The notes under the pieces are model-generated. The model searched no databases. It was not told the DNA's origin and saw only the letters and a list, made by a program, of their open reading frames with translations. A program made the position numbers and the translations under genes. Positions 13,926 through 42,286 of a stretch of 64,000 nt of DNA are shown here, piece after piece; within the stretch, counting starts at the first letter, position 1; every line of letters starts with the position of its first letter. Origin of the DNA: Bacteroidota bacterium (GTDB lineage Bacteria > Bacteroidota > Bacteroidia > UBA8524). Location of the stretch: contig SBGR01000010.1 of assembly GCA_006226545.1 (NCBI GenBank), positions 1 to 64,000 of the forward strand, written 5' to 3'.

Positions 13926-13996
13926 CACGGGTGCCTGGGCTCGAACCAAGATCAACGGTTTTGGAGACCGCTATTCTACCATTGAACTACACCCGT
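13926..13996 (-). tRNA. tRNA-Trp(CCA)
   Basis: Reverse complement ACGGGTGTAGTTCAATGGTAGAATAGCGGTCTCCAAAACC...GGTTCGAGCCC...CACCCGTG. Confidence 0.95.
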
Positions 13997-14013
13997 TTGT
14001 TTTTTTTCGTATT

Positions 14014-14055
14014 GACAAAAAATCAACCCCGATGTAAATCGGGATTGATTTTGTC
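14014..14055 (-). terminator. tuf terminator
   Basis: Minus strand AATCAATCCCGAT-TTAC-ATCGGGGTTGATTTTTT. Confidence 0.9.
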
Positions 14056-14076
14056 AAAATGTTATTTCAAGTGTGA

Positions 14077-15264
14077 TTACTTGGTGATTTCAGTTACCTG
14101 ACCTGCACCAATTGTTCTACCACCTTCACGCATCGCGAAACGAAGACCTTTTTCAAGGGCGATTTCACTGATAAGTTTTACGTTGATAGTTACGTTATCA
14201 CCTGGCATTACCATTTCAGTTCCTTCTGGAAGAGTTACCTCACCGGTAACGTCTGTGGTACGGAAGTAGAACTGTGGACGGTATTTGTTGAAGAATGGAG
14301 TGTGACGTCCACCTTCTTCTTTGCTAAGGATATAGCACTCACCTTTAAATTCAGTATGTGGAGTTACAGATCCTGGCTTGCAGATAACCATACCACGTTT
14401 GATATCGGTTTTCTCAATACCACGGAGGAGGAGACCAGCGTTGTCACCAGCTTCACCTCTGTCAAGAATCTTACGGAACATCTCGATACCAGTTACTGTA
14501 GAAGTCAATTTCTCAGCACCCATACCGATGATTTCAACTGGATCACCAGAGTTGATTACACCTCTTTCGATACGACCTGTAGCAACAGTTCCACGACCAG
14601 TAATTGAGAATACGTCCTCAACTGGCATCAAGAAAGGCTGGTCAACCAAACGTGGAGGAAGTGGAATCCAGTTATCAACTGCTTCCATCAACTCTTGAAT
14701 AGTTCCTACCCAGTTTGCGTCGCCATTAAGACCACCAAGAGCAGAACCTTTAATTACTGGGATGTTGTCACCGTCGAATTCGTAGAAGCTCAACAATTCG
14801 CGGATGTCCATCTCAACAAGCTCGAGCAACTCAGGATCGTCAACCATGTCCACTTTGTTAAGGAACACTACGATCTGAGGTACACCTACCTGACGTGCAA
14901 GAAGGATGTGCTCACGTGTTTGAGGCATTGCTCCATCAGTAGCAGCAACTACAAGGATAGCACCGTCCATCTGAGCAGCACCAGTAACCATGTTCTTTAC
15001 GTAGTCAGCGTGACCTGGACAGTCAACGTGAGCGTAGTGACGGTTAGCGGTAGAATACTCAACGTGTGCAGTGTTGATTGTAATACCTCTTTCTTTTTCT
15101 TCAGGAGCTGAGTCAATTGATTCAAAAGACTTAGCTTCAGACATACCTGCATCAGCCAATACTTTGGTAATGGCGGCTGTCAGGGTGGTTTTACCGTGGT
15201 CAACGTGGCCAATAGTACCAATGTTAACGTGCGGTTTCGAACGGTCGAAATTCTCTTTTGCCAT
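14077..15264 (-). CDS. tuf: Elongation factor Tu
   Basis: [64 protein letters not shown]. Confidence 0.99.
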
Positions 15265-15312
15265 TGTATTGTTTCGTTATTATATTATTAAAACTACTGT
15301 TTTATAGTTTTG

Positions 15313-15385
<73 letters not shown>

Positions 15386-15480
15386 TTATACACACTTAGG
15401 TTGCCATCTGCCCCAACTGAAGCTTCCGGAAACCCATGTATTGCTTGTTCTCTATCGAGCTGCGACACGTTTCAAAATCG

Positions 15481-15553
15481 AGCGGGAGACGAGGCTCGAA
15501 CCCGCGACCTACAGCTTGGAAGGCTGTCGCTCTACCAACTGAGCTACTCCCGC
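15481..15553 (-). tRNA. tRNA-Gly(TCC)
   Basis: GCGGGAGTAGCTCAGTTGGTAGAGCGACAGCCTTCCAAGCTGTAGGTCGCGGGTTCGAGCCTCGTCTCCCGCT. Confidence 0.95.
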
Positions 15554-15581
15554 TTTTTTTCGTACCGTAAAAACGGTATGG

Positions 15582-15662
15582 TGGGGAGAGAAGGATTCGA
15601 ACCTTCGAAGCCGAAGCAACGGATTTACAGTCCGTCCCATTTGACCGCTCTGGAATCTCCCC
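15582..15662 (-). tRNA. tRNA-Tyr(GTA)
   Basis: Class II tRNA with long variable arm, anticodon loop CTGTAAA. Confidence 0.95.
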
Positions 15663-15689
15663 AAACGTGTTGCAATACTAAAGAAAAAG

Positions 15690-15762
15690 AGCCTCCTATC
15701 GGATTCGAACCAACGACCTACTGATTACAAATCAGTTGCTCTACCAACTGAGCTAAGGAGGC
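15690..15762 (-). tRNA. tRNA-Thr(TGT)
   Basis: GCCTCCTTAGCTCAGTTGGTAGAGCAACTGATTTGTAATCAGTAGGTCGTTGGTTCGAATCCGATAGGAGGC. Confidence 0.95.
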
Positions 15763-32639: not shown

Positions 32640-33674
32640 TTAATCTCCTTTCCGCTCAGCTAAGACTCGTTTTGCTGCGGCAACAGCTACTTCATGGTGA
32701 GTGCCTGGATTTGAAACGATGTTTTTCAAAAAGGCTTCATCTTTATGCTTATAACGATGGAAGAACCGATTCTCCTTTTTCTGTTTCGCCCTTAGTTCTC
32801 TTTGAGTAGGAATGGAAGAACGCAAATAGGGATAAACAAAGACCCTCTCTCTGGGCTTTTTGCTGAGCCGCGTAGCAAGCTTTTCGGTTTCCGCACTCAA
32901 GCTACTCAAGTAATAGCACCTTGTAGCCGTTTGTATACGCAAGAAACTAAGCTCAAAGATTCGTTTATCCACTTTGGGTTGTCGGCACACATCGACAAAT
33001 TGCATTTCAGTAAAGGGAATAGCTCTTTTTTCTTGTTCGTGCAATAGATAAAGGGTCTTGGTCTTCCAGTCGATGTTCCATTCAGCGCGTTTATCGTTGA
33101 AGTAGTACGAAAGAATTAAAATGCCCGGAGGAAGTATGAATAGCAGAACTGCACCGGCAAACAGGAATACGAACCAAATGATATACGGATCCATGTTTTC
33201 GGAGTTAAAGAGAATAATTCCCAAGTGTGATGGGACAATGATGAGTAAACTGCTGAACAAACCCAGGAACCCATAATTCAGTTTGGGCGTAAAGACTTGA
33301 GTTTCGGGTGAGGGAGTAATCTTATGACCTTCCTGTTTCGACAGTTTTCCGGAGTAGAAATCGGCTACCAGTTGTTGCATTTGCCGATAGGAATCAACTT
33401 TGCCCGGATCTACTTCAAAATACCAATCGTTGGATGTGTCTTGATTTCGGTAGAAAAAGCGAACTCTGTTATTTTCCTCCCTGGCTATCTCCAAATAATG
33501 CTCATCGCTATGGTAAATGGTGATGGCGGGATATTCTTCTTCTGAATTTTCTGTGCGCTTCCATTCTGCTTCCCATGGGAATGTCTCAAATACTTCTAGG
33601 AATTGCTCTGATGTGATGAGAGCATCATTTCCTAAAGAAGGGTCATGTGTTACTTTATAGCGAAGGGGTTTCAC
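32640..33674 (-). CDS. Uncharacterised protein with two TM segments
   Basis: 344 aa ORF; hydrophobic segments FLGLFSSLLIIVPSHLGIILF and IIWFVFLFAGAVLLFILPPGILILSYYF. Confidence 0.75.
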   Translation of the reverse strand: MKPLRYKVTHDPSLGNDALITSEQFLEVFETFPWEAEWKRTENSEEEYPAITIYHSDEHYLEIAREENNRVRFFYRNQDTSNDWYFEVDPGKVDSYRQMQQLVADFYSGKLSKQEGHKITPSPETQVFTPKLNYGFLGLFSSLLIIVPSHLGIILFNSENMDPYIIWFVFLFAGAVLLFILPPGILILSYYFNDKRAEWNIDWKTKTLYLLHEQEKRAIPFTEMQFVDVCRQPKVDKRIFELSFLRIQTATRCYYLSSLSAETEKLATRLSKKPRERVFVYPYLRSSIPTQRELRAKQKKENRFFHRYKHKDEAFLKNIVSNPGTHHEVAVAAAKRVLAERKGD

Positions 33675-33878: not shown

Positions 33879-33908
33879 TTTGAAAACTTTCATTTTCAAT
33901 TACATTTG
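33879..33908 (+). promoter_or_regulatory. arg operon promoter
   Basis: TTTG-N18-TACATTTG, perfect Bacteroidetes consensus. Confidence 0.82.
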
Positions 33909-33918
33909 CAACCACAAA

Positions 33919-33978
33919 ATGAAACAAGTACTACTGAACTATAGATCACTTAGACGCAGGCCATACGCGGCAGGCTAA
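33919..33978 (+). CDS. Arginine leader peptide MKQVLLNYRSLRRRPYAAG
   Basis: ATG AAA CAA GTA CTA CTG AAC TAT AGA TCA CTT AGA CGC AGG CCA TAC GCG GCA GGC TAA; 4 Arg in 19 codons between promoter and terminator, upstream of arg genes. Confidence 0.85.
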   Translation: MKQVLLNYRSLRRRPYAAG

Positions 33979-34023
33979 GGGTGTGTTCAGCAGTGAAAGA
34001 GATAAACCCGAAAGGCTTGCCGC
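33967..34023 (+). promoter_or_regulatory. Antiterminator pairing of arginine attenuator
   Basis: GCGGCAGGCT (33967-33976) pairs over 10 bp (2 G-U) with GGCTTGCCGC (34014-34023), the 5' arm of the terminator. Confidence 0.75.
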
Positions 34024-34045
34024 ATGGCAGGCCTTTTTTGTTTTT
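34011..34045 (+). terminator. Attenuator terminator of arg operon
   Basis: AAAGGCTTGCC-GCAT-GGCAGGCCTTT then TTTGTTTTT; 11 bp. Confidence 0.9.
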
Positions 34046-34065: not shown

Positions 34066-34173
34066 ATGAATTTAACAGACATGCTACATAGAAAAACGAT
34101 ACTTCGAAGTGCAAACCGACAAACGCATTTTGAACAGATTCAATCCATTCACGACATGTTAAACTATACCTAG
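34066..34173 (+). CDS. Possible small ORF MNLTDMLHRKTILRSANRQTHFEQIQSIHDMLNYT
   Basis: 35-codon ORF between attenuator and GNAT gene. Confidence 0.35.
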   Translation: MNLTDMLHRKTILRSANRQTHFEQIQSIHDMLNYT

Positions 34174-34184
34174 CTGTACGCTAA

Positions 34185-34868
34185 ATGAACATATTTAAAC
34201 CGAAGTTTAAAGTGCAGGTAGCCGATGAGCGGCACTTACCTTATGCACAAACCATCGTTGATGAGATGGAAGCTTCCGCCAAAGTGCGAGGCACCGGTAT
34301 AGCGAAACGCAGTCCGGAATTTATCATCAAAAAAATACAGGAGGGCAAAGCTGTCATCGCTTTAAGCTCCTCCGGTGAATGGGCCGGATTCTGTTATATC
34401 GAATCTTGGAGCCACGGTCAATTTGTGGCAAACTCCGGCCTTATAGTCAATCCCGCCTTCAGAAAAAGCGGATTGGCCAAAGAAATCAAGGAACGCATCT
34501 TTCAACTATCACGCTCCCGTTACCCTGAGGCTAAAATATTTGGACTCACCACCGGATTAGCCGTGATGAAGATTAATTCCGACCTGGGCTACGAACCCGT
34601 TACATACCAGGAACTCACCACCGACGAAGATTTTTGGAGCGGCTGCAAGAGCTGCGTCAACTACGATATTCTCATGGCCAAAGAGCGCAAGAACTGCCTC
34701 TGCACCGCCATGTTATACAACCCAGAAGAAAACGTAATCAAAAAGTGGAAAGGACGAAGGCTGGATTTTTCCCGCCACTCCGACCTGTATGAACGGTATA
34801 TGCGCATCAAGAAGAGTCGCTTGTTGCGCTGGATTAATAAAGTAAAAGAGCCCAAAACACAAAAATGA
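34185..34868 (+). CDS. GNAT N-acetyltransferase, probable first arginine-pathway enzyme (ArgA analogue)
   Basis: GLIVNPAFRKSGLAKEIKERIF acetyl-CoA loop-like motif; first gene of arg operon. Confidence 0.85.
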   Translation: MNIFKPKFKVQVADERHLPYAQTIVDEMEASAKVRGTGIAKRSPEFIIKKIQEGKAVIALSSSGEWAGFCYIESWSHGQFVANSGLIVNPAFRKSGLAKEIKERIFQLSRSRYPEAKIFGLTTGLAVMKINSDLGYEPVTYQELTTDEDFWSGCKSCVNYDILMAKERKNCLCTAMLYNPEENVIKKWKGRRLDFSRHSDLYERYMRIKKSRLLRWINKVKEPKTQK

Positions 34869-36079
34869 CAAAACGCGTAGTATTGGCCTATAGCGGAGGA
34901 CTAGATACTTCCTATTGTGCCCTTTACCTGAGCAAGGAACTCGGCTATGAGGTCATTGCCGTAACCATCAATACCGGTGGTTTTTCAACCGAAGAATTGG
35001 AACAAATTGGCGATAGGGCCTTGAAAGCCGGCGTAGCGAAATACGAGGTACTCGAAGAAACCCAACGCTATTACGATAAAGTAGTACAATACCTTCTTTT
35101 TGGTAATGTGCTTAAAAATCAAACGTATCCACTTTCCGTAAGTGCCGAACGTATCGCTCAAGCATCTGCCTTGGCTGCCTATGCCAAAAAAGTCAATGCG
35201 GCTGCTGTAGCGCACGGGAGCACCGGAGCAGGAAACGACCAGATTCGCTTCGATATGATTCTACAAAACCTGCTGCCGGGCATCGAATTGATCACCCCCA
35301 TCCGCGATAAACAACTGAGTCGCGAGGAGGAAATCAATTACCTGCACCAAGCCGGACTAGATTTCCCTTCGTCCAAAGCGACCTACAGCATTAACCAAGG
35401 ACTTTGGGGAACTTCGGTAGGAGGCAAAGAAACACTCAACTCACGTCAAAACCTTCCTGAATCAGCTTGGCCTATTCAAGTGAGCAAGTCGGAGCCTGAA
35501 ACAGTGCAAATCCGTTTTGAGAAAGGTCAGCCCGTATCGGTAAACAATATTCGTTTTGCTCATCCAATTCAAGTGATCAAAGCCTTACACAGAATTGCAT
35601 CGCCGTTTGGCATCGGCAGAGACATTCACGTGGGCGATACGATTCTCGGAATCAAAGGCCGTGTTGGGTTTGAAGCAGCCGCGCCCCTCATCCTCATCAA
35701 AGCACACCACTTATTGGAGAAACACGTACTTACCAAATCACAGCTCGCGTGGAAAGAGCAGATTGCACAATTTTACGGTAACAATCTACACGAAGGTTTA
35801 TACCTCGATCCGGTGATGCGCAACATGGAGGCTTTCTTGGAAAGCAGCCAAGAAAAAGTGAGCGGCAATGTTTTTATCAAACTTTACCCTTACCGTTTTG
35901 AGCTGGAAGGCATTGAATCGGAACACGACCTTATGTCGTCTAAGTTTGGAACATACGGCGAAATGAACCGCGCCTGGTCTGCCGAAGACGCCAAAGGGTT
36001 TATCCGCATCTACGGAAACCAAAATACCATGTACTATCAGATTAACAAGGAGGAGAACCCATACCATGAATACAATTAA
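34865..36079 (+). CDS. argG: Argininosuccinate synthase
   Basis: VLAYSGGLDTSYCALYL, AHGSTGAGNDQIRFD. Confidence 0.96.
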   Translation: MTKRVVLAYSGGLDTSYCALYLSKELGYEVIAVTINTGGFSTEELEQIGDRALKAGVAKYEVLEETQRYYDKVVQYLLFGNVLKNQTYPLSVSAERIAQASALAAYAKKVNAAAVAHGSTGAGNDQIRFDMILQNLLPGIELITPIRDKQLSREEEINYLHQAGLDFPSSKATYSINQGLWGTSVGGKETLNSRQNLPESAWPIQVSKSEPETVQIRFEKGQPVSVNNIRFAHPIQVIKALHRIASPFGIGRDIHVGDTILGIKGRVGFEAAAPLILIKAHHLLEKHVLTKSQLAWKEQIAQFYGNNLHEGLYLDPVMRNMEAFLESSQEKVSGNVFIKLYPYRFELEGIESEHDLMSSKFGTYGEMNRAWSAEDAKGFIRIYGNQNTMYYQINKEENPYHEYN

Positions 36080-37046
36080 AGTAGGCATTGCCGGTGCTGC
36101 CGGATATACAGGCGGAGAATTGATACGCATCTTACTTCGTCACCCTCAGGTAGAAATTGCATTTGCACACAGCAATAGCTCAGCCGGGAAAAAATGGTAT
36201 GAGGTGCACCACGATTTACTTGGAATAACAGACCGCGGATTTACTGCCGGTTTTTCGCAAGACATCGACGTGCTTTTTCTCTGTGTTGGCCACGGCGCCG
36301 CACGTAAGTTTATGGAAGAGACGCCGCTCAACTCTCACATTAAAGTGATTGATTTGAGCACCGACTTCCGTCACCAGGCTTCCAATAACTTCGACGACCG
36401 TAACTTTGTCTATGGCCTTCCTGAGCTGAACCGCGACGCCATCGCTAAGGCTTCCAATATCGCTAATCCGGGCTGCTTTGCTTCAGCCATCCAATTGGCT
36501 TTATTGCCTTTGGCTGCGGCAGGTAAATTAACGAGCGAAGTACATATTCAAGCCACCACAGGTTCTACCGGTGCCGGACAAAAACCTACAGCTAGCTCGC
36601 ATTTCTCTTGGCGCAACAATAACCTCTCGGTATACAAAGCGCTCGATCACCAACACATGCAAGAGATTACAGAAAGCCTAGCGTCGCAACAATCGGCTTT
36701 GCCGGCCATCCATTTTATTCCGCAAAGAGGCAATTTCACCCGCGGCATCATGTCGGTGGCTCAAGTGCAATCTGATTTGTCACAACAAGAAGCGGAAGCT
36801 TTGTTTAGCGAATACTATGCAAACCATCCATTTACCCATGTTGCGCCGTTCGACCTGGATTTGAAGCAGGTGGTAAATACCAATTTCTGCTATATCCAAG
36901 TGGTGAAACAAGGCAATCAGTTGCTCATCATTTCCATCCTCGATAACCTTTTGAAAGGGGCCTCAGGCCAAGCGGTTCAAAACATGAATCTGATGTTTGG
37001 CTTGGAAGAAAATACCGGACTCCAACTTAAAGCTTCTGCCTTCTAA
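36066..37046 (+). CDS. argC: N-acetyl-gamma-glutamyl-phosphate reductase
   Basis: VGIAGAAGYTGGELIRILLRHPQVE, YGLPELNRDAIAKASNIANPGCFAS. Confidence 0.97.
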   Translation: MNTIKVGIAGAAGYTGGELIRILLRHPQVEIAFAHSNSSAGKKWYEVHHDLLGITDRGFTAGFSQDIDVLFLCVGHGAARKFMEETPLNSHIKVIDLSTDFRHQASNNFDDRNFVYGLPELNRDAIAKASNIANPGCFASAIQLALLPLAAAGKLTSEVHIQATTGSTGAGQKPTASSHFSWRNNNLSVYKALDHQHMQEITESLASQQSALPAIHFIPQRGNFTRGIMSVAQVQSDLSQQEAEALFSEYYANHPFTHVAPFDLDLKQVVNTNFCYIQVVKQGNQLLIISILDNLLKGASGQAVQNMNLMFGLEENTGLQLKASAF

Positions 37047-38185
37047 TGAAATTATTCGACGTTTATCCGCTTTACGATATCACGCCTGTGAAGGCTTCGG
37101 GCTCTCGCTTATGGGACGCTCAGGGTAAAGAATACCTCGACTTATACGGAGGTCATGCGGTAATCTCTATTGGTCATTCTCATCCGCATTACGTGCAACG
37201 CATCACCGAGCAATTGAACCAAATTGGCTTTTACAGCAATGCGGTGAAAATGCCTTTGCAGGAAGAGCTAGCGTATAAATTGGGTGAGCTTTCAGGCTAT
37301 ACCGATTATGCTTTATTTCTTTCCAACTCAGGCGCTGAGGCCAATGAGAATGCCTTGAAGGTGGCTTCATTTTACAACGGAAGAAAGAAGGTATTGGTGC
37401 TAAAAAACTCCTTCCACGGAAGAACATCACTTGCGGTGGCAGCTACCGATAATCCCAAAATTGTGGCCCCGGTAAACGAAGCTGAATTCATTCAGTTTAT
37501 CCCCATCAACGATGAGCAAGCCTTAAGCGAAGCGATGGATGAAACAGTTTGCGCCGTGATGCTCGAGGGCATTCAAGGTGTAGGTGGTATTCATGTGCCC
37601 AGTGTTTCTTATTTGCAAAAGGTGCGCTCTTTATGTGATCAGTTTGGCTCAGTCATGATTCTAGACGAGGTGCAATCGGGTTACGGTAGAAGCGGTTATT
37701 TCTTCGCTCACCAATACGCCGAGGTAAAACCGGATATCATCACCGTAGCCAAAGGCATGGGTAATGGTTTTCCGGTAGCCGGCACTTTACTATCGCCTAA
37801 GTTTGAAGCGAAACACGGTATGCTAGGCACCACTTTCGGAGGTAACTACCTCGCATCCGCTGCGGCCATCGCCGTATTGGAAGTGATCAAAGAGGAAAAC
37901 CTCATTCAACATTCGGCTGAACTTGGGGCCTATACCATTGAACAACTCAAGGGAATCTCCGGTATCACGGAAGTTCGCGGCATGGGTTTGATGATTGGCA
38001 TCAGTTTGCCGTATTCTTCTGCAGCCGTTCGCAAGAACTTGTTGATGGAACACGGCATCTTTACCGGATCGGCTTCCGACCCAAATACCTTACGACTCTT
38101 ACCGGCGCTCAATGTGAGCAAAGCCGATATCGATACTTTCTTAGACGCATTAAAGAGTGAAGTGATGAAAGGGCAGGCTTCGTGA
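37046..38185 (+). CDS. argD: Acetylornithine-type aminotransferase
   Basis: FLSNSGAEANENALKVASFYNGRKKVLVLKNSFHGRT, ILDEVQSGYGRSGYFFAHQYAEVKPDIITVAKGMGNGFP. Confidence 0.95.
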   Translation: MKLFDVYPLYDITPVKASGSRLWDAQGKEYLDLYGGHAVISIGHSHPHYVQRITEQLNQIGFYSNAVKMPLQEELAYKLGELSGYTDYALFLSNSGAEANENALKVASFYNGRKKVLVLKNSFHGRTSLAVAATDNPKIVAPVNEAEFIQFIPINDEQALSEAMDETVCAVMLEGIQGVGGIHVPSVSYLQKVRSLCDQFGSVMILDEVQSGYGRSGYFFAHQYAEVKPDIITVAKGMGNGFPVAGTLLSPKFEAKHGMLGTTFGGNYLASAAAIAVLEVIKEENLIQHSAELGAYTIEQLKGISGITEVRGMGLMIGISLPYSSAAVRKNLLMEHGIFTGSASDPNTLRLLPALNVSKADIDTFLDALKSEVMKGQAS

Positions 38186-39159
38186 AAAATTTCATGGGAA
38201 CAGCAGATGTGAGCGATGTGCAGCAACTGCTGGATGAAGCCTTGAATCTTAAGGCCGATCCGCAATCTGCAGCTGATATTGGAGCCGGCCTGAAGTTGGG
38301 ATTGGTGTTTTTAAACCCAAGCCTGCGCACCCGACTCAGCACCGAAATGGCGGCTAAAAACCTCGGCATGGACGTGCAGGTTTTGAACATGAGCTCGGAT
38401 GCGTGGGCCATGGAGTTTGAAGAAGGAGCCATCATGAATGCCGACAAAGCCGAACACATCAAAGAGGCAGCCGGCGTAATCGGACGTTATTTTGATATCA
38501 TCGGATTGCGGAGTTTTCCGGGTTTGAAAGACCGCGATGCAGACGATGAAGAACGCATCTTTAAAGCGTTTGAAAAGTATACGGCAAAGCCGATGCTCAG
38601 CCTGGAAAGTGCAACTCGTCACCCGCTGCAAAGCCTCGCCGACTTGATCACCATCGCTGAACACAGCAAAAAGAAAAGACCGAAAATCGCCTTGACCTGG
38701 GCGCCTCACGTAAAGGCATTGCCTCAAGCTGTTCCTCATTCCTTTGCCGAGTGGATGTTGGCAGCCTGTCATGAACTGCATATTGTCCATCCTCCAGGAC
38801 TGGAACTTGACCCATCCTTTACCGATGGGGCCATCATCACACACAACCAAGAAGAGGCATTGGAAGATGCCGACTTCATCTACGTGAAGAACTGGTCGAT
38901 GCGCGAACCTTACGGCAAAGCATATGAAGGGGGTGCAGATTGGCTCTTGACCGAAGACAAGCTGAAACAGGCGCCTGAGGCAAAGATTATGCATTGCTTG
39001 CCGGTACGTCGGAATGTGGAATTGAGCGATGAACTGCTCGACTCACCTCGTTCGCTCGTATTGGACCAGGCAGAGAATAGACTTTGGTCGGCAACGGCCG
39101 TATTACGCAGAATGATAATTGAACTCCATGAAAAACAAGGAAGAACTGTGGGTGCTTAA
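38182..39159 (+). CDS. argF': N-acetyl/N-succinylornithine carbamoyltransferase (ArgF')
   Basis: FLNPSLRTRLSTEMAAKNLGMDV, ESATRHPLQSLADLITI, MHCLPVRRNVE; GTG start. Confidence 0.93.
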   Translation: MKNFMGTADVSDVQQLLDEALNLKADPQSAADIGAGLKLGLVFLNPSLRTRLSTEMAAKNLGMDVQVLNMSSDAWAMEFEEGAIMNADKAEHIKEAAGVIGRYFDIIGLRSFPGLKDRDADDEERIFKAFEKYTAKPMLSLESATRHPLQSLADLITIAEHSKKKRPKIALTWAPHVKALPQAVPHSFAEWMLAACHELHIVHPPGLELDPSFTDGAIITHNQEEALEDADFIYVKNWSMREPYGKAYEGGADWLLTEDKLKQAPEAKIMHCLPVRRNVELSDELLDSPRSLVLDQAENRLWSATAVLRRMIIELHEKQGRTVGA

Positions 39160-39931
39160 AGTTGGCGGGAAAGTCTTGGAAGATGAAATGGCTTTGGCCA
39201 CCTTTCTGGATCAACTCGCTACTTCAGGCAAACGTTTTATCTTGGTTCACGGCGGAGGCAAACATGCCAGCGCCTTGGCTGAAAAGCTTGGCATTCCGCA
39301 ACAGATGGTAGATGGCAGACGCATCACTGATGAGGCCACGCTGGAGCTTGCTTTGATGAGCTATGCCGGTCTCCTCAATAAAAAGGTAGTGGCCCAATTG
39401 CAAGGTCGCGGTATCAATGCCGTTGGCTTAAGCGGTGCCGACGGAAATACGGTTCCGGCCATGAAACGCCCGGTTGGCGATATAGACTACGGCTGGGTGG
39501 GAGATCCAATCCCGGGTGAAGTCAACAAACTTTTTCTTTTAACGCTACTTCACGGAAATTTGAGTCCGGTATTCTGCGCCTTGACCCACGATAAAATGGG
39601 CCATATGCTCAATACCAATGCCGATACCATGGCGCAAACCCTGGCCATCGCGATGAGTCACCATTACCGCGTTAAACTTCTCTACCTTTTCGAAAAGAAA
39701 GGCGTACTGCGCGATCTAGACCGCGAAGACAGTTTAATTCCGTTAATCAGACGTACAGATATTCAAGCGCTGAGCGATACGGGAGTCATATCAGAAGGCA
39801 TGTTGCCCAAGTTGCAGAATGCCGCCAAAGCCGTTGAAGCCGGCGTAGAGGCTGTACTCATTGGTGCAGCCAGTCAGTTGCCTCATATTTTAAGCGACGA
39901 AGCAGAATCAGCTACCCATGTCATCGATTGA
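39128..39931 (+). CDS. argB: Acetylglutamate kinase
   Basis: WVLKVGGKVLED, FILVHGGGKHASALAEKLGIPQQMVDGRRIT; start at MKNKEE inside the ORF. Confidence 0.95.
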   Translation: MKNKEELWVLKVGGKVLEDEMALATFLDQLATSGKRFILVHGGGKHASALAEKLGIPQQMVDGRRITDEATLELALMSYAGLLNKKVVAQLQGRGINAVGLSGADGNTVPAMKRPVGDIDYGWVGDPIPGEVNKLFLLTLLHGNLSPVFCALTHDKMGHMLNTNADTMAQTLAIAMSHHYRVKLLYLFEKKGVLRDLDREDSLIPLIRRTDIQALSDTGVISEGMLPKLQNAAKAVEAGVEAVLIGAASQLPHILSDEAESATHVID

Positions 39932-40979
39932 AACCTATACCGAAGAATCGCTTGAGCTCTTAGCGCAACTCTTGAAAATTCCGGCTTTGTCAGGTCAAGA
40001 AGCAGCCAAAGCAGATGCGCTGGAAGCCTGGCTCCAAGAACGACAGTACGAGGTTCAGCGATTTGGGAATAACCTGGTAATGAGTCATAATCCGAATGTG
40101 GAGCTTAAGGTATTACTGCATTCGCATATTGATACGGTGAAGCCTGCATCCAGCTGGACTCAAGATCCTTATGCTGCCAGTTGGGAGAACGGAAAACTGA
40201 CTGCCCTAGGTAGCAACGATGCCGGTGCTTCAGTAATCAGTATGTTGGCTGCCTTTCGTTATTTAAAATCAATCAATTGGCCTTATGGCTTGTATTGGGT
40301 GGCCGGAGCAGAAGAAGAAAACTCCGGTTCGGGAGGTTTATCGGCTTTGCTGCCCCATTTGCCTGAATTCAGCCTAGCCATCGCCGGTGAGCCTACTTCG
40401 CTCAAAGCGGCTGTGGCAGAAAAAGGTTTGATGGTGATAGACGGCGAAGTGAAAGGCGTGGCCGGACATGCTGCTAGAGAAGAAGGGGTGAACGCCATTT
40501 ACGAGGCTTTAGCAGATATTGAATTTTTCCGCGACTATCGTTTTGAGAAGGATTCGGAGTTTTTAGGTCCGGTAAAAATGAACCTAACCGTTGCTCAAGC
40601 AGGCGAAAAACACAATAGCATTCCGGATAGTTTTCGCTATACCGTAGACGTGCGCCTAAACGAAATGTATACCCACGAAGAAGTGCTTGAAATCGTGCAA
40701 TCGCATTGTAAGGGACAACTCAGCATGCGAAGCAATCGCTTAAAACCAAGTGCTACTCCGGTAAATCATCCGGTGCGAACAGCGCTGAGAAATATGGCGA
40801 TCGAGCAATACGGTTCACCAACCTTATCAGACCAGGCTTTGATGCCCTGGCCATCGCTCAAAATGGGTCCCGGCGATTCTGCCCGCTCCCATACAGCCGA
40901 TGAATTTATTCTGGACAGTGAGATAAAAGAGGCTGTGCAGACCTATATCCAACTTTTACAAAACACCTATTCGAAATGA
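39918..40979 (+). CDS. argE: M20 family deacylase (acetylornithine deacetylase-like)
   Basis: LLHSHIDTVKPASSWTQDPY, GSNDAGASVISML, AGAEEENSGSGG. Confidence 0.92.
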   Translation: MSSIETYTEESLELLAQLLKIPALSGQEAAKADALEAWLQERQYEVQRFGNNLVMSHNPNVELKVLLHSHIDTVKPASSWTQDPYAASWENGKLTALGSNDAGASVISMLAAFRYLKSINWPYGLYWVAGAEEENSGSGGLSALLPHLPEFSLAIAGEPTSLKAAVAEKGLMVIDGEVKGVAGHAAREEGVNAIYEALADIEFFRDYRFEKDSEFLGPVKMNLTVAQAGEKHNSIPDSFRYTVDVRLNEMYTHEEVLEIVQSHCKGQLSMRSNRLKPSATPVNHPVRTALRNMAIEQYGSPTLSDQALMPWPSLKMGPGDSARSHTADEFILDSEIKEAVQTYIQLLQNTYSK

Positions 40980-42286
40980 AACTCTGGTCGAAAGGAAATA
41001 CCGCACCGCAAGAGGTGCAGCATCGTATAGAAGAATTTACCGCAGGCGAAGACCGACACTGGGATGCTTTTCTGGCTGTGGTAGACGTGCAAGGCAGCAT
41101 CGCTCATGTGAACATGTTGGCCAAACAAGGTTTATTGAGCGAAGCAGATCACGCTATCCTCATTCCGGCTCTACAAGGTTTACTGGAGCTGGCTAAACAA
41201 GGCAAACTTCACTTGGAAGAAGGGGTGGAAGACATTCACTCGCAAGTGGAACTCATGCTGACCCGAGAACTAGGCGAGGTAGGGAAAAAGATTCACGCGG
41301 CCCGCTCCCGCAATGATCAAGTTTTAGTCGACTTGAAGCTTTACCTACGTGAAGAATTGCTTTCGCTTGAAACAGAGGTACAAGATTTCGCTAAGCAAAT
41401 GTTGGCTTTGAGTGAAAAACACAAAGACGTGCTTTTGCCCGGCTATACGCATTACCAAGTAGCGATGCCTTCTTCTTTCGGGTTGTGGTTTGCCTCTTGG
41501 GCCGAATGTTTGGCTGAAGACCTGTGGCAAGTACATGCAGCAGTTAAGCTGGTGAACAAAAATCCGCTTGGCTCGGCTGCCGGCTTTGGCTCCTCTTTTC
41601 CTATCGATAGAGAACAGACCACCCAAGAACTTGGCTTCAGCAACCTGCATTGGAATGTTTTGAATGCGCAGATGAGCAGGGGAAGAACAGAAAAATCGGT
41701 GGCTACAGCTTTGGCTGCGCTCGGATTTACCTTGGGTAGAATGAGCCAAGACATCGTTTTATACCTATCGCAAAACTTTGGTTTCCTGCGATTCCCTTCG
41801 GCTTATACCACGGGCTCTAGCATTATGCCGCACAAGAAGAATCCGGATGTATTTGAGCTGATGCGCGCGCGTTGCAACAGATTGCAGTCCTTGCCCAATG
41901 AGTTAGCGTTGATTCAAGCTAACCTCTCCACCGGTTACCACCGCGATTTGCAAATCATGAAAGAGCACCTTTTTCCGGCATTGCAGGAGTTGAAATCGTG
42001 CTTTAACATGGCAGGCTGGATGCTTGAAGTGGTGGAAGTGAGTGAATCTATTCTGAGCGATGAGAAATACCGCTACCTCTTTACGGTGGAGGCTGTTAAT
42101 CAGAAAGTATTGGAAGGCATGGCCTTTAGGGATGCTTACGTGTCTGTTGGACAAACCGTTGAAGCAGGGAAGTTTGAGTGGAATGCATCGCTAAAACATT
42201 CGCACCAAGGCAGTTTGGGAAACCTCTGCAATGGGGAGATTGAAAGGCAATTGAATGAGGTGAGCGAGGCCATTGCAAAAGCCTAA
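40976..42286 (+). CDS. argH: Argininosuccinate lyase
   Basis: EDIHSQVELMLTRELGEVGKKIHAARSRNDQV, GSSIMPHKKNPDVFELMRAR. Confidence 0.97.
   Translation: MKLWSKGNTAPQEVQHRIEEFTAGEDRHWDAFLAVVDVQGSIAHVNMLAKQGLLSEADHAILIPALQGLLELAKQGKLHLEEGVEDIHSQVELMLTRELGEVGKKIHAARSRNDQVLVDLKLYLREELLSLETEVQDFAKQMLALSEKHKDVLLPGYTHYQVAMPSSFGLWFASWAECLAEDLWQVHAAVKLVNKNPLGSAAGFGSSFPIDREQTTQELGFSNLHWNVLNAQMSRGRTEKSVATALAALGFTLGRMSQDIVLYLSQNFGFLRFPSAYTTGSSIMPHKKNPDVFELMRARCNRLQSLPNELALIQANLSTGYHRDLQIMKEHLFPALQELKSCFNMAGWMLEVVEVSESILSDEKYRYLFTVEAVNQKVLEGMAFRDAYVSVGQTVEAGKFEWNASLKHSHQGSLGNLCNGEIERQLNEVSEAIAKA

Follow-up and report, generated by a model that had tools for sequence, protein, structure and literature searches.

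The arginine biosynthesis operon in the Bacteroidota sequence analysed here is preceded by an element that probably attenuates transcription according to the arginine supply, in the manner of the trp/his-type attenuators. The element lies within a contig stretch of 64,000 nucleotides, the whole of which is referred to below as the window. The reading is supported by the parts of the element themselves, by one close relative, by folding energies, by Arg-rich leaders found across the class and by the lack of an ArgR match. A sequence-only reading had already proposed that the arg operon is preceded by a ribosome-mediated attenuator responding to arginine, and the genes of the operon, the conservation of the element in a second genome (locus L002), the folding energies and the lack of an ArgR match all support this proposal. 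From these data we infer that the leader is translated, that ribosomes stall on it and that read-through depends on arginine.

On rereading the sequence, every element that the sequence-only reading had named, namely the promoter, the leader ORF, the antiterminator, the terminator and the helix arms, was found in its place (Table 1). The TTTG-N18-TACATTTG arrangement at 33879-33908 is one that we take to be a Bacteroidota-type promoter. Transcription would start near 33914, which would make the leader transcript near-leaderless. Four of the 19 leader codons encode Arg, the AGA codon at 33943-33945 and then the run AGA CGC AGG at 33952-33960. The 5' strand of the antiterminator overlaps leader codons 17-19 together with the first base of the stop codon, and its duplex with the 3' strand comprises 10 bp (8 Watson-Crick and 2 G-U pairs). 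The T tract that follows the terminator hairpin reads T6-G-T5, and among 239 loci the best-scoring leader terminators were those of the window, L002 and L196. The gene upstream of the element (32640-33674) is encoded on the opposite strand. Elsewhere in the window, five tRNA genes are clustered at 13926-15762 on the minus strand and a sixth is located at 76-149.

Table 1. Features of the arginine leader region and of the operon downstream of it, in window coordinates.
Feature	Position	Strand	Basis
Promoter: TTTG (33879-33882), 18-nt spacer, TACATTTG (33901-33908)	33879-33908	+	Read in sequence
Leader ORF, 19 codons, encoding MKQVLLNYRSLRRRPYAAG	33919-33978	+	Reading frame
Antiterminator 5' strand, GCGGCAGGCT	33967-33976	+	Pairs with 34014-34023
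Antiterminator 3' strand, GGCTTGCCGC, within terminator 5' arm and loop	34014-34023	+	Pairing, folding
Intrinsic terminator: AAAGGCTTGCC-GCAT-GGCAGGCCTTT (34011-34036) and T tract to 34045	34011-34045	+	
Possible third helix: TACTACTGAAC (33929-33939) with GTTCAGCAGTG (33985-33995)	33929-33995	+	Minimum-energy fold
Second small ORF, encoding MNLTDMLHRKTILRSANRQTHFEQIQSIHDMLNYT	34066-34173	+	
GNAT-family acetyltransferase, first gene of the operon	34185-34868	+	Weak Pfam Acetyltransf_1 match
argG, argC, argD, N-acetylornithine carbamoyltransferase, argB, ArgE/DapE-type deacylase, argH	34865-42286	+	NCBIfam matches, reading frames

In the proposed mechanism, RNA polymerase would start at about 33914 and a ribosome would follow it along the 19-codon leader. 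When charged tRNA-Arg is scarce, the ribosome would stall at Arg codons 12-14 and leave 33967-33976 free; given the standard ribosome footprint, a ribosome whose A site holds Arg codon 12 frees the RNA from about 33967. The freed strand would pair with the 5' arm of the terminator once this arm was made, no terminator would form and the arg operon would be transcribed. When arginine is plentiful, the ribosome would reach the stop codon and cover 33967-33976, the terminator would form and transcription would end near 34040. The window thus has the following features of a trp/his-type attenuator: several codons for the end product in a short leader ORF, an intrinsic terminator between the leader and the first gene (34011-34045) and, as judged by sequence and folding, a mutually exclusive antiterminator that the position of the ribosome would free or cover.

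Of 200 shuffled versions of the window leader, 199 folded less well than the leader itself (z -2.8). The antiterminator duplex has an energy of -20.7 kcal/mol, which was equalled by 2 of 1000 dinucleotide-shuffled leaders. The folding of RNA free from 33967 predicted that the antiterminator forms, at -26.1 kcal/mol, when the 5' arm of the terminator has just been made. In the full-length RNA free from the same position, the antiterminator reached -26.8 and the terminator -27.9 kcal/mol, and, as the energies of the two complete structures are close, the state formed first can persist. With the RNA free from about 33991, as it would be with a ribosome at the stop codon, the terminator alone was predicted to form. 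The antiterminator was also favoured in the predicted folds of ribosome-free RNA just after the 5' arm had been made. This predicted behaviour is a weak point of the model, since a strict attenuator should avoid it.

A third helix enclosing the Arg codons had also been suggested from the sequence. It would form a pseudoknot with the antiterminator and hence oppose it, and on the folding model it could counter the ribosome-free antiterminator, yet its support does not go beyond chance. The suggestion holds in that 10 of the 11 positions of TACTACTGAAC and GTTCAGCAGTG pair, with one mismatch, and in that the helix is present in the minimum-energy fold. It falls short in that the pairing of the 5' and 3' segments was equalled in 157 of 1000 shuffled leaders, which is not significant alone, and what is left besides is the identity of the segments in two genomes. 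As for the terminator, it is in itself unremarkable, because a similar one (L304, in the relative G001) ends an ordinary gene between two convergent genes. We rejected that match as a leader element on account of the convergent genes that flank it. What is unusual in the window is the leader segment that mimics the 3' arm of the terminator.

The first gene of the operon encodes the GNAT-family protein, which matched no NCBIfam family and could be the missing first enzyme of the pathway, an N-acyl-glutamate synthase. Between the terminator and this gene there is a second small ORF, which the sequence-only reading had overlooked and which ends 11 nt before the GNAT start codon. Its product matched no Pfam family above the cut-off. 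The ORF was found in the window and in L002 only; the same place in L002 encodes MNTTLYTNVRTPRLGRRHFESIQSIADMLNYT, the last 15 residues are 87% identical there, and the codon changes are mostly synonymous.

Five genomes of the GTDB family of the source genome were compared. The design of the window was found in L002 (genome G003; the same sequence as WGMZ01000022.1, L131), where the leader peptide is MTTILLNLRSPRRQPNTAG and the local DNA identity to the window is about 76%. The promoter of L002 keeps TACATTTGCA, its antiterminator core GGCAGGCT is identical to that of the window, both terminator arms are kept around a changed loop, and the core arms of the third helix are kept as well. L002 retains Arg codons 9, 12 and 13, the last of these altered synonymously, and has Gln in place of the third Arg of the run. 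Since the exact design occurs in these two genomes only, with identical arms, no covariation can be demonstrated for the window helices. The comparison with relatives that had been proposed for the leader therefore supports the Arg codons, the antiterminator and the terminator arms and yields no helix covariation. Another genome of the family (G001, locus L003) has a 42-codon leader that ends in RR before the stop codon and is followed by a different structure, and two of the five genomes had no match to the GNAT gene. A strict search for a leader with a terminator in relatives found almost only L002.

Across the class, a search of 395 Bacteroidia genomes detected the GNAT protein in 137, and argG follows its gene in 204 of the 212 loci with enough sequence. 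For the counting of leaders, we used 198 non-redundant upstream regions and required an ATG-initiated small ORF with three or more Arg among its last 12 residues. Such an ORF was present upstream of GNAT-argG in 129 of the 198 regions, as compared with a mean of 30.2 and a maximum of 43 in dinucleotide shuffles, a count that stands for recurrence and not for independent events as the region sets are phylogenetically uneven. Arg stands out in this respect, the same count for other amino acids giving at most 77 (Leu) and then 48 (Ile).

An intrinsic terminator before the GNAT gene was found for only 12 of 239 candidate leaders (0 to 5 in shuffles), and some of these 12 look like terminators of the upstream gene. 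Because terminators are so few and many relatives use another structure, what is conserved as a family is the leader ORF rich in Arg, and not the terminator design of the window that the sequence-only reading had suggested might form one. In most relatives, the Arg-codon leader sensor is coupled to a readout other than an intrinsic terminator.

The usual controller described for arginine synthesis is the repressor ArgR, a DNA-binding protein, unlike an RNA leader. The Arg_repressor_C domain was detected in 17 of the 395 Bacteroidia genomes, and ArgR had no match in the source genome nor elsewhere in its family. In nearly all genomes having both ArgR and the GNAT gene, argR is located directly upstream of the latter, where the leader would be (e.g., L119, L115, L121 and L127). 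Among the 11 argR-adjacent loci, one had a called leader, as compared with 69 of the 118 other loci (Fisher P 0.0026, relatedness ignored). The repressor and the leader look like alternatives, with an adjacent argR taking the place of the leader. A translated arginine sensor before the operon would explain how the pathway is regulated in many Bacteroidia.

A second design was seen in the relatives. A hairpin with a UAYGY loop (H2) was found in 57 loci, as compared with 0 or 1 per shuffled set, with the loops TACGT (25), TACGC (10), TATGT (10), TATGC (5) and a few others. Because a stem of five or more pairs was a condition for including a locus among the 57, the pairing at these five positions follows from the selection. 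The H2 arms paired with their own partners at -8.3 kcal/mol versus -1.7 kcal/mol with the arms of other loci, and an alignment of 31 loci showed changes on both sides at seven of the eight H2 pairs. H2 is preceded by a smaller hairpin, H1, the support for which is weaker than that for H2; the last Arg codon lies in or just before the 5' arm of H1, and its loop often holds the stop codon.

The position of H2 is fixed relative to the Arg codons. Of the 57 loci, 56 have an Arg codon whose first base lies 31-36 nt upstream of the H2 loop; 2000 trials in which the last twelve leader residues were shuffled gave a mean of 27.7 such loci and a maximum of 40. The stop codon is less constant, its end falling between 11 and 27 nt ahead of the loop and thus shifting by up to 16 nt. 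As the RNA is registered to the Arg codon and not to the stop codon, this favours the sensing of a hungry Arg codon over arrest at the stop. When 51 genomes from a single family were searched with the H1-H2 covariance model (R1), 17 matches had E < 0.001, and every one of these matches adjoins a GNAT gene, indicating that the element is specific to the GNAT-argG operon. The model had no match in the window, L001 or L002.

Several roles for H2 were considered and set aside. It was rejected as an intrinsic terminator, there being no T tract directly after it, and antiterminator-type pairing of its arms with the leader, the 5' UTR or the downstream RNA showed at most a marginal excess over between-locus pairings. 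No pseudoknot partner for the UAYGY loop was found (13 observed versus 12.8 expected). Mimicry of a tRNA anticodon by the loop was dropped, UAUGY variants being common, and a general role in amino-acid leaders was rejected, since H2 occurred in 1 of 28 hisG upstream regions and did not follow the leader there. In the 40 nt after H2, C makes up 25% and G 8%; the corresponding values ahead of the GNAT gene in leaderless loci are 18% and 14%. The resemblance of this C-rich, G-poor RNA to a Rho-loading site suggests a lead to follow and is not evidence of Rho.

We therefore put forward, tentatively and with the chances slightly against it, that the arginine operon in much of Bacteroidia is governed by a leader-peptide attenuator which, in many lineages, has no intrinsic terminator as its readout and instead places an Arg codon 31-36 nt before the UAYGY loop of a hairpin, with C-rich, G-poor RNA behind the hairpin. 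Such an arrangement would constitute a new class of ribosome-sensing switch, possibly dependent on Rho or on a protein, and the window terminator would be its local replacement. The fixed spacing of the UAYGY hairpin from an Arg codon makes it a concrete and testable new regulatory element, and a single family in which the sensor persists while the readout differs offers a natural experiment on the evolution of attenuators.

Leader peptides were also observed upstream of hisG in a Cyclobacteriaceae-type family (L340-L367), where they are His-rich and come in two designs. One has a His run and an intrinsic terminator (e.g., L341, L345 and L353). The other ends in HHSS, with its stop codon in the loop of the hairpin ATTCCTC-CTAA-GGAGGAAT (e.g., L349, L356 and L364); this hairpin is strong and no terminator is evident. 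Two attenuator designs thus seem to coexist in these bacteria, and the His-run leaders with terminators in a related family make arginine attenuation plausible here.

Arginine could also be sensed by the nascent leader peptide in the ribosome tunnel, as in the fungal arginine attenuator peptide, TnaC and SpeFL. The ribosome would then stall at the stop codon and keep the antiterminator covered at high arginine. Such an arrest peptide would account for the penultimate Arg in 126 of 146 leaders of relatives, which is encoded by all six Arg codons (to be among the 146, a leader needed no more than an Arg within its final four residues or RR within its final twelve). It would also fit the lower rate of non-synonymous (0.20) than synonymous (0.31) change within lineages, where residues other than Arg are partly conserved. 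However, it is the distance from the Arg codon to the hairpin that is kept in the 57 loci while the stop codon moves, and the window leader ends in the four residues YAAG, none of which is Arg. In addition, AGG and CGA are over-used in leaders relative to the GNAT gene, and such over-use of rare Arg codons is what codon sensing predicts. We regard arrest as unlikely.

Less likely still is the direct binding of arginine by the leader RNA as a riboswitch, or of an arginine-sensing protein to this RNA, with the ORF mattering little. The near-constant UAYGY loop on a freely changing stem in 57 loci is what a binding site would look like, but the hairpin is small for an aptamer, it is missing from the window and L002, and its being locked to an Arg codon is sensible only if translation matters. 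It is similarly improbable that the ORF and the terminator stand together by chance, or that the terminator belongs with what lies upstream and regulates nothing. The opposite orientation of the upstream gene and the terminators of similar kind that end ordinary genes in a relative would allow this. Against it, the terminator is placed after a promoter and ahead of the operon, the end of the leader repeats its 3' arm, the leader and the terminator are kept in L002, and Arg-rich leaders recur far above chance. The attenuator that responds to charged tRNA-Arg through the leader codons remains the preferred reading of the window.

As to known families, the window leader scored below every Rfam gathering threshold (Leu_leader 17.1 of 50 bits, Phe_leader 17.1 of 55), and no family matched it or 28 related loci at gathering or relaxed thresholds; the T-box covariance model, included in these scans, had no match either. 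This agrees with the sequence-only reading, to which no Rfam-style arginine leader family was known. No description of an arginine leader in Bacteroidota was found in the open-access literature, which was the scope of the search. A flavobacterial transcriptome paper gives clues of leader-peptide attenuation at amino-acid operons, undetailed in its main text (PMC9723704).

Arginine is sensed through small ORFs elsewhere. In gamma-proteobacteria, the speF leader orf34/SpeFL responds to arginine through its consecutive Arg codons, alters the structure of the mRNA and controls putrescine synthesis via Rho, RNase G and the structure of the ribosome-binding site (PMC6386406). SpeFL and the window leader are both small ORFs with Arg codons, whereas the control of putrescine belongs to SpeFL; seven of the longer leader peptides of the relatives had no Pfam match, DUF2618 of SpeFL included. 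In Staphylococcus aureus, the rare Arg codons of the rbfL leader ORF sense the arginine supply, but there stalling blocks the ribosome-binding site and represses, and the target is not an arginine-synthesis gene (PMC13009471). The uORFC-8-2 cysS motif of Rhodobacterales is likewise a phylum-specific leader with tandem codons and a proposed ribosome-mediated attenuation (PMC8632094), differing from the window in its amino acid, cysteine, and in belonging to alpha-proteobacteria. The closest likeness is to the trp/his-type attenuators (Rfam Trp_leader, His_leader, Leu_leader, Thr_leader and Phe_leader), with which the window shares the ORF with codons for the product, the antiterminator, the terminator and the logic. 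It differs from them in concerning arginine and Bacteroidota and in that most of its relatives have no intrinsic terminator. The mechanism in the window is thus that of the known trp/his-type attenuators, here in a phylum and for an amino acid that are new to it, while the UAYGY design of the relatives may be new.
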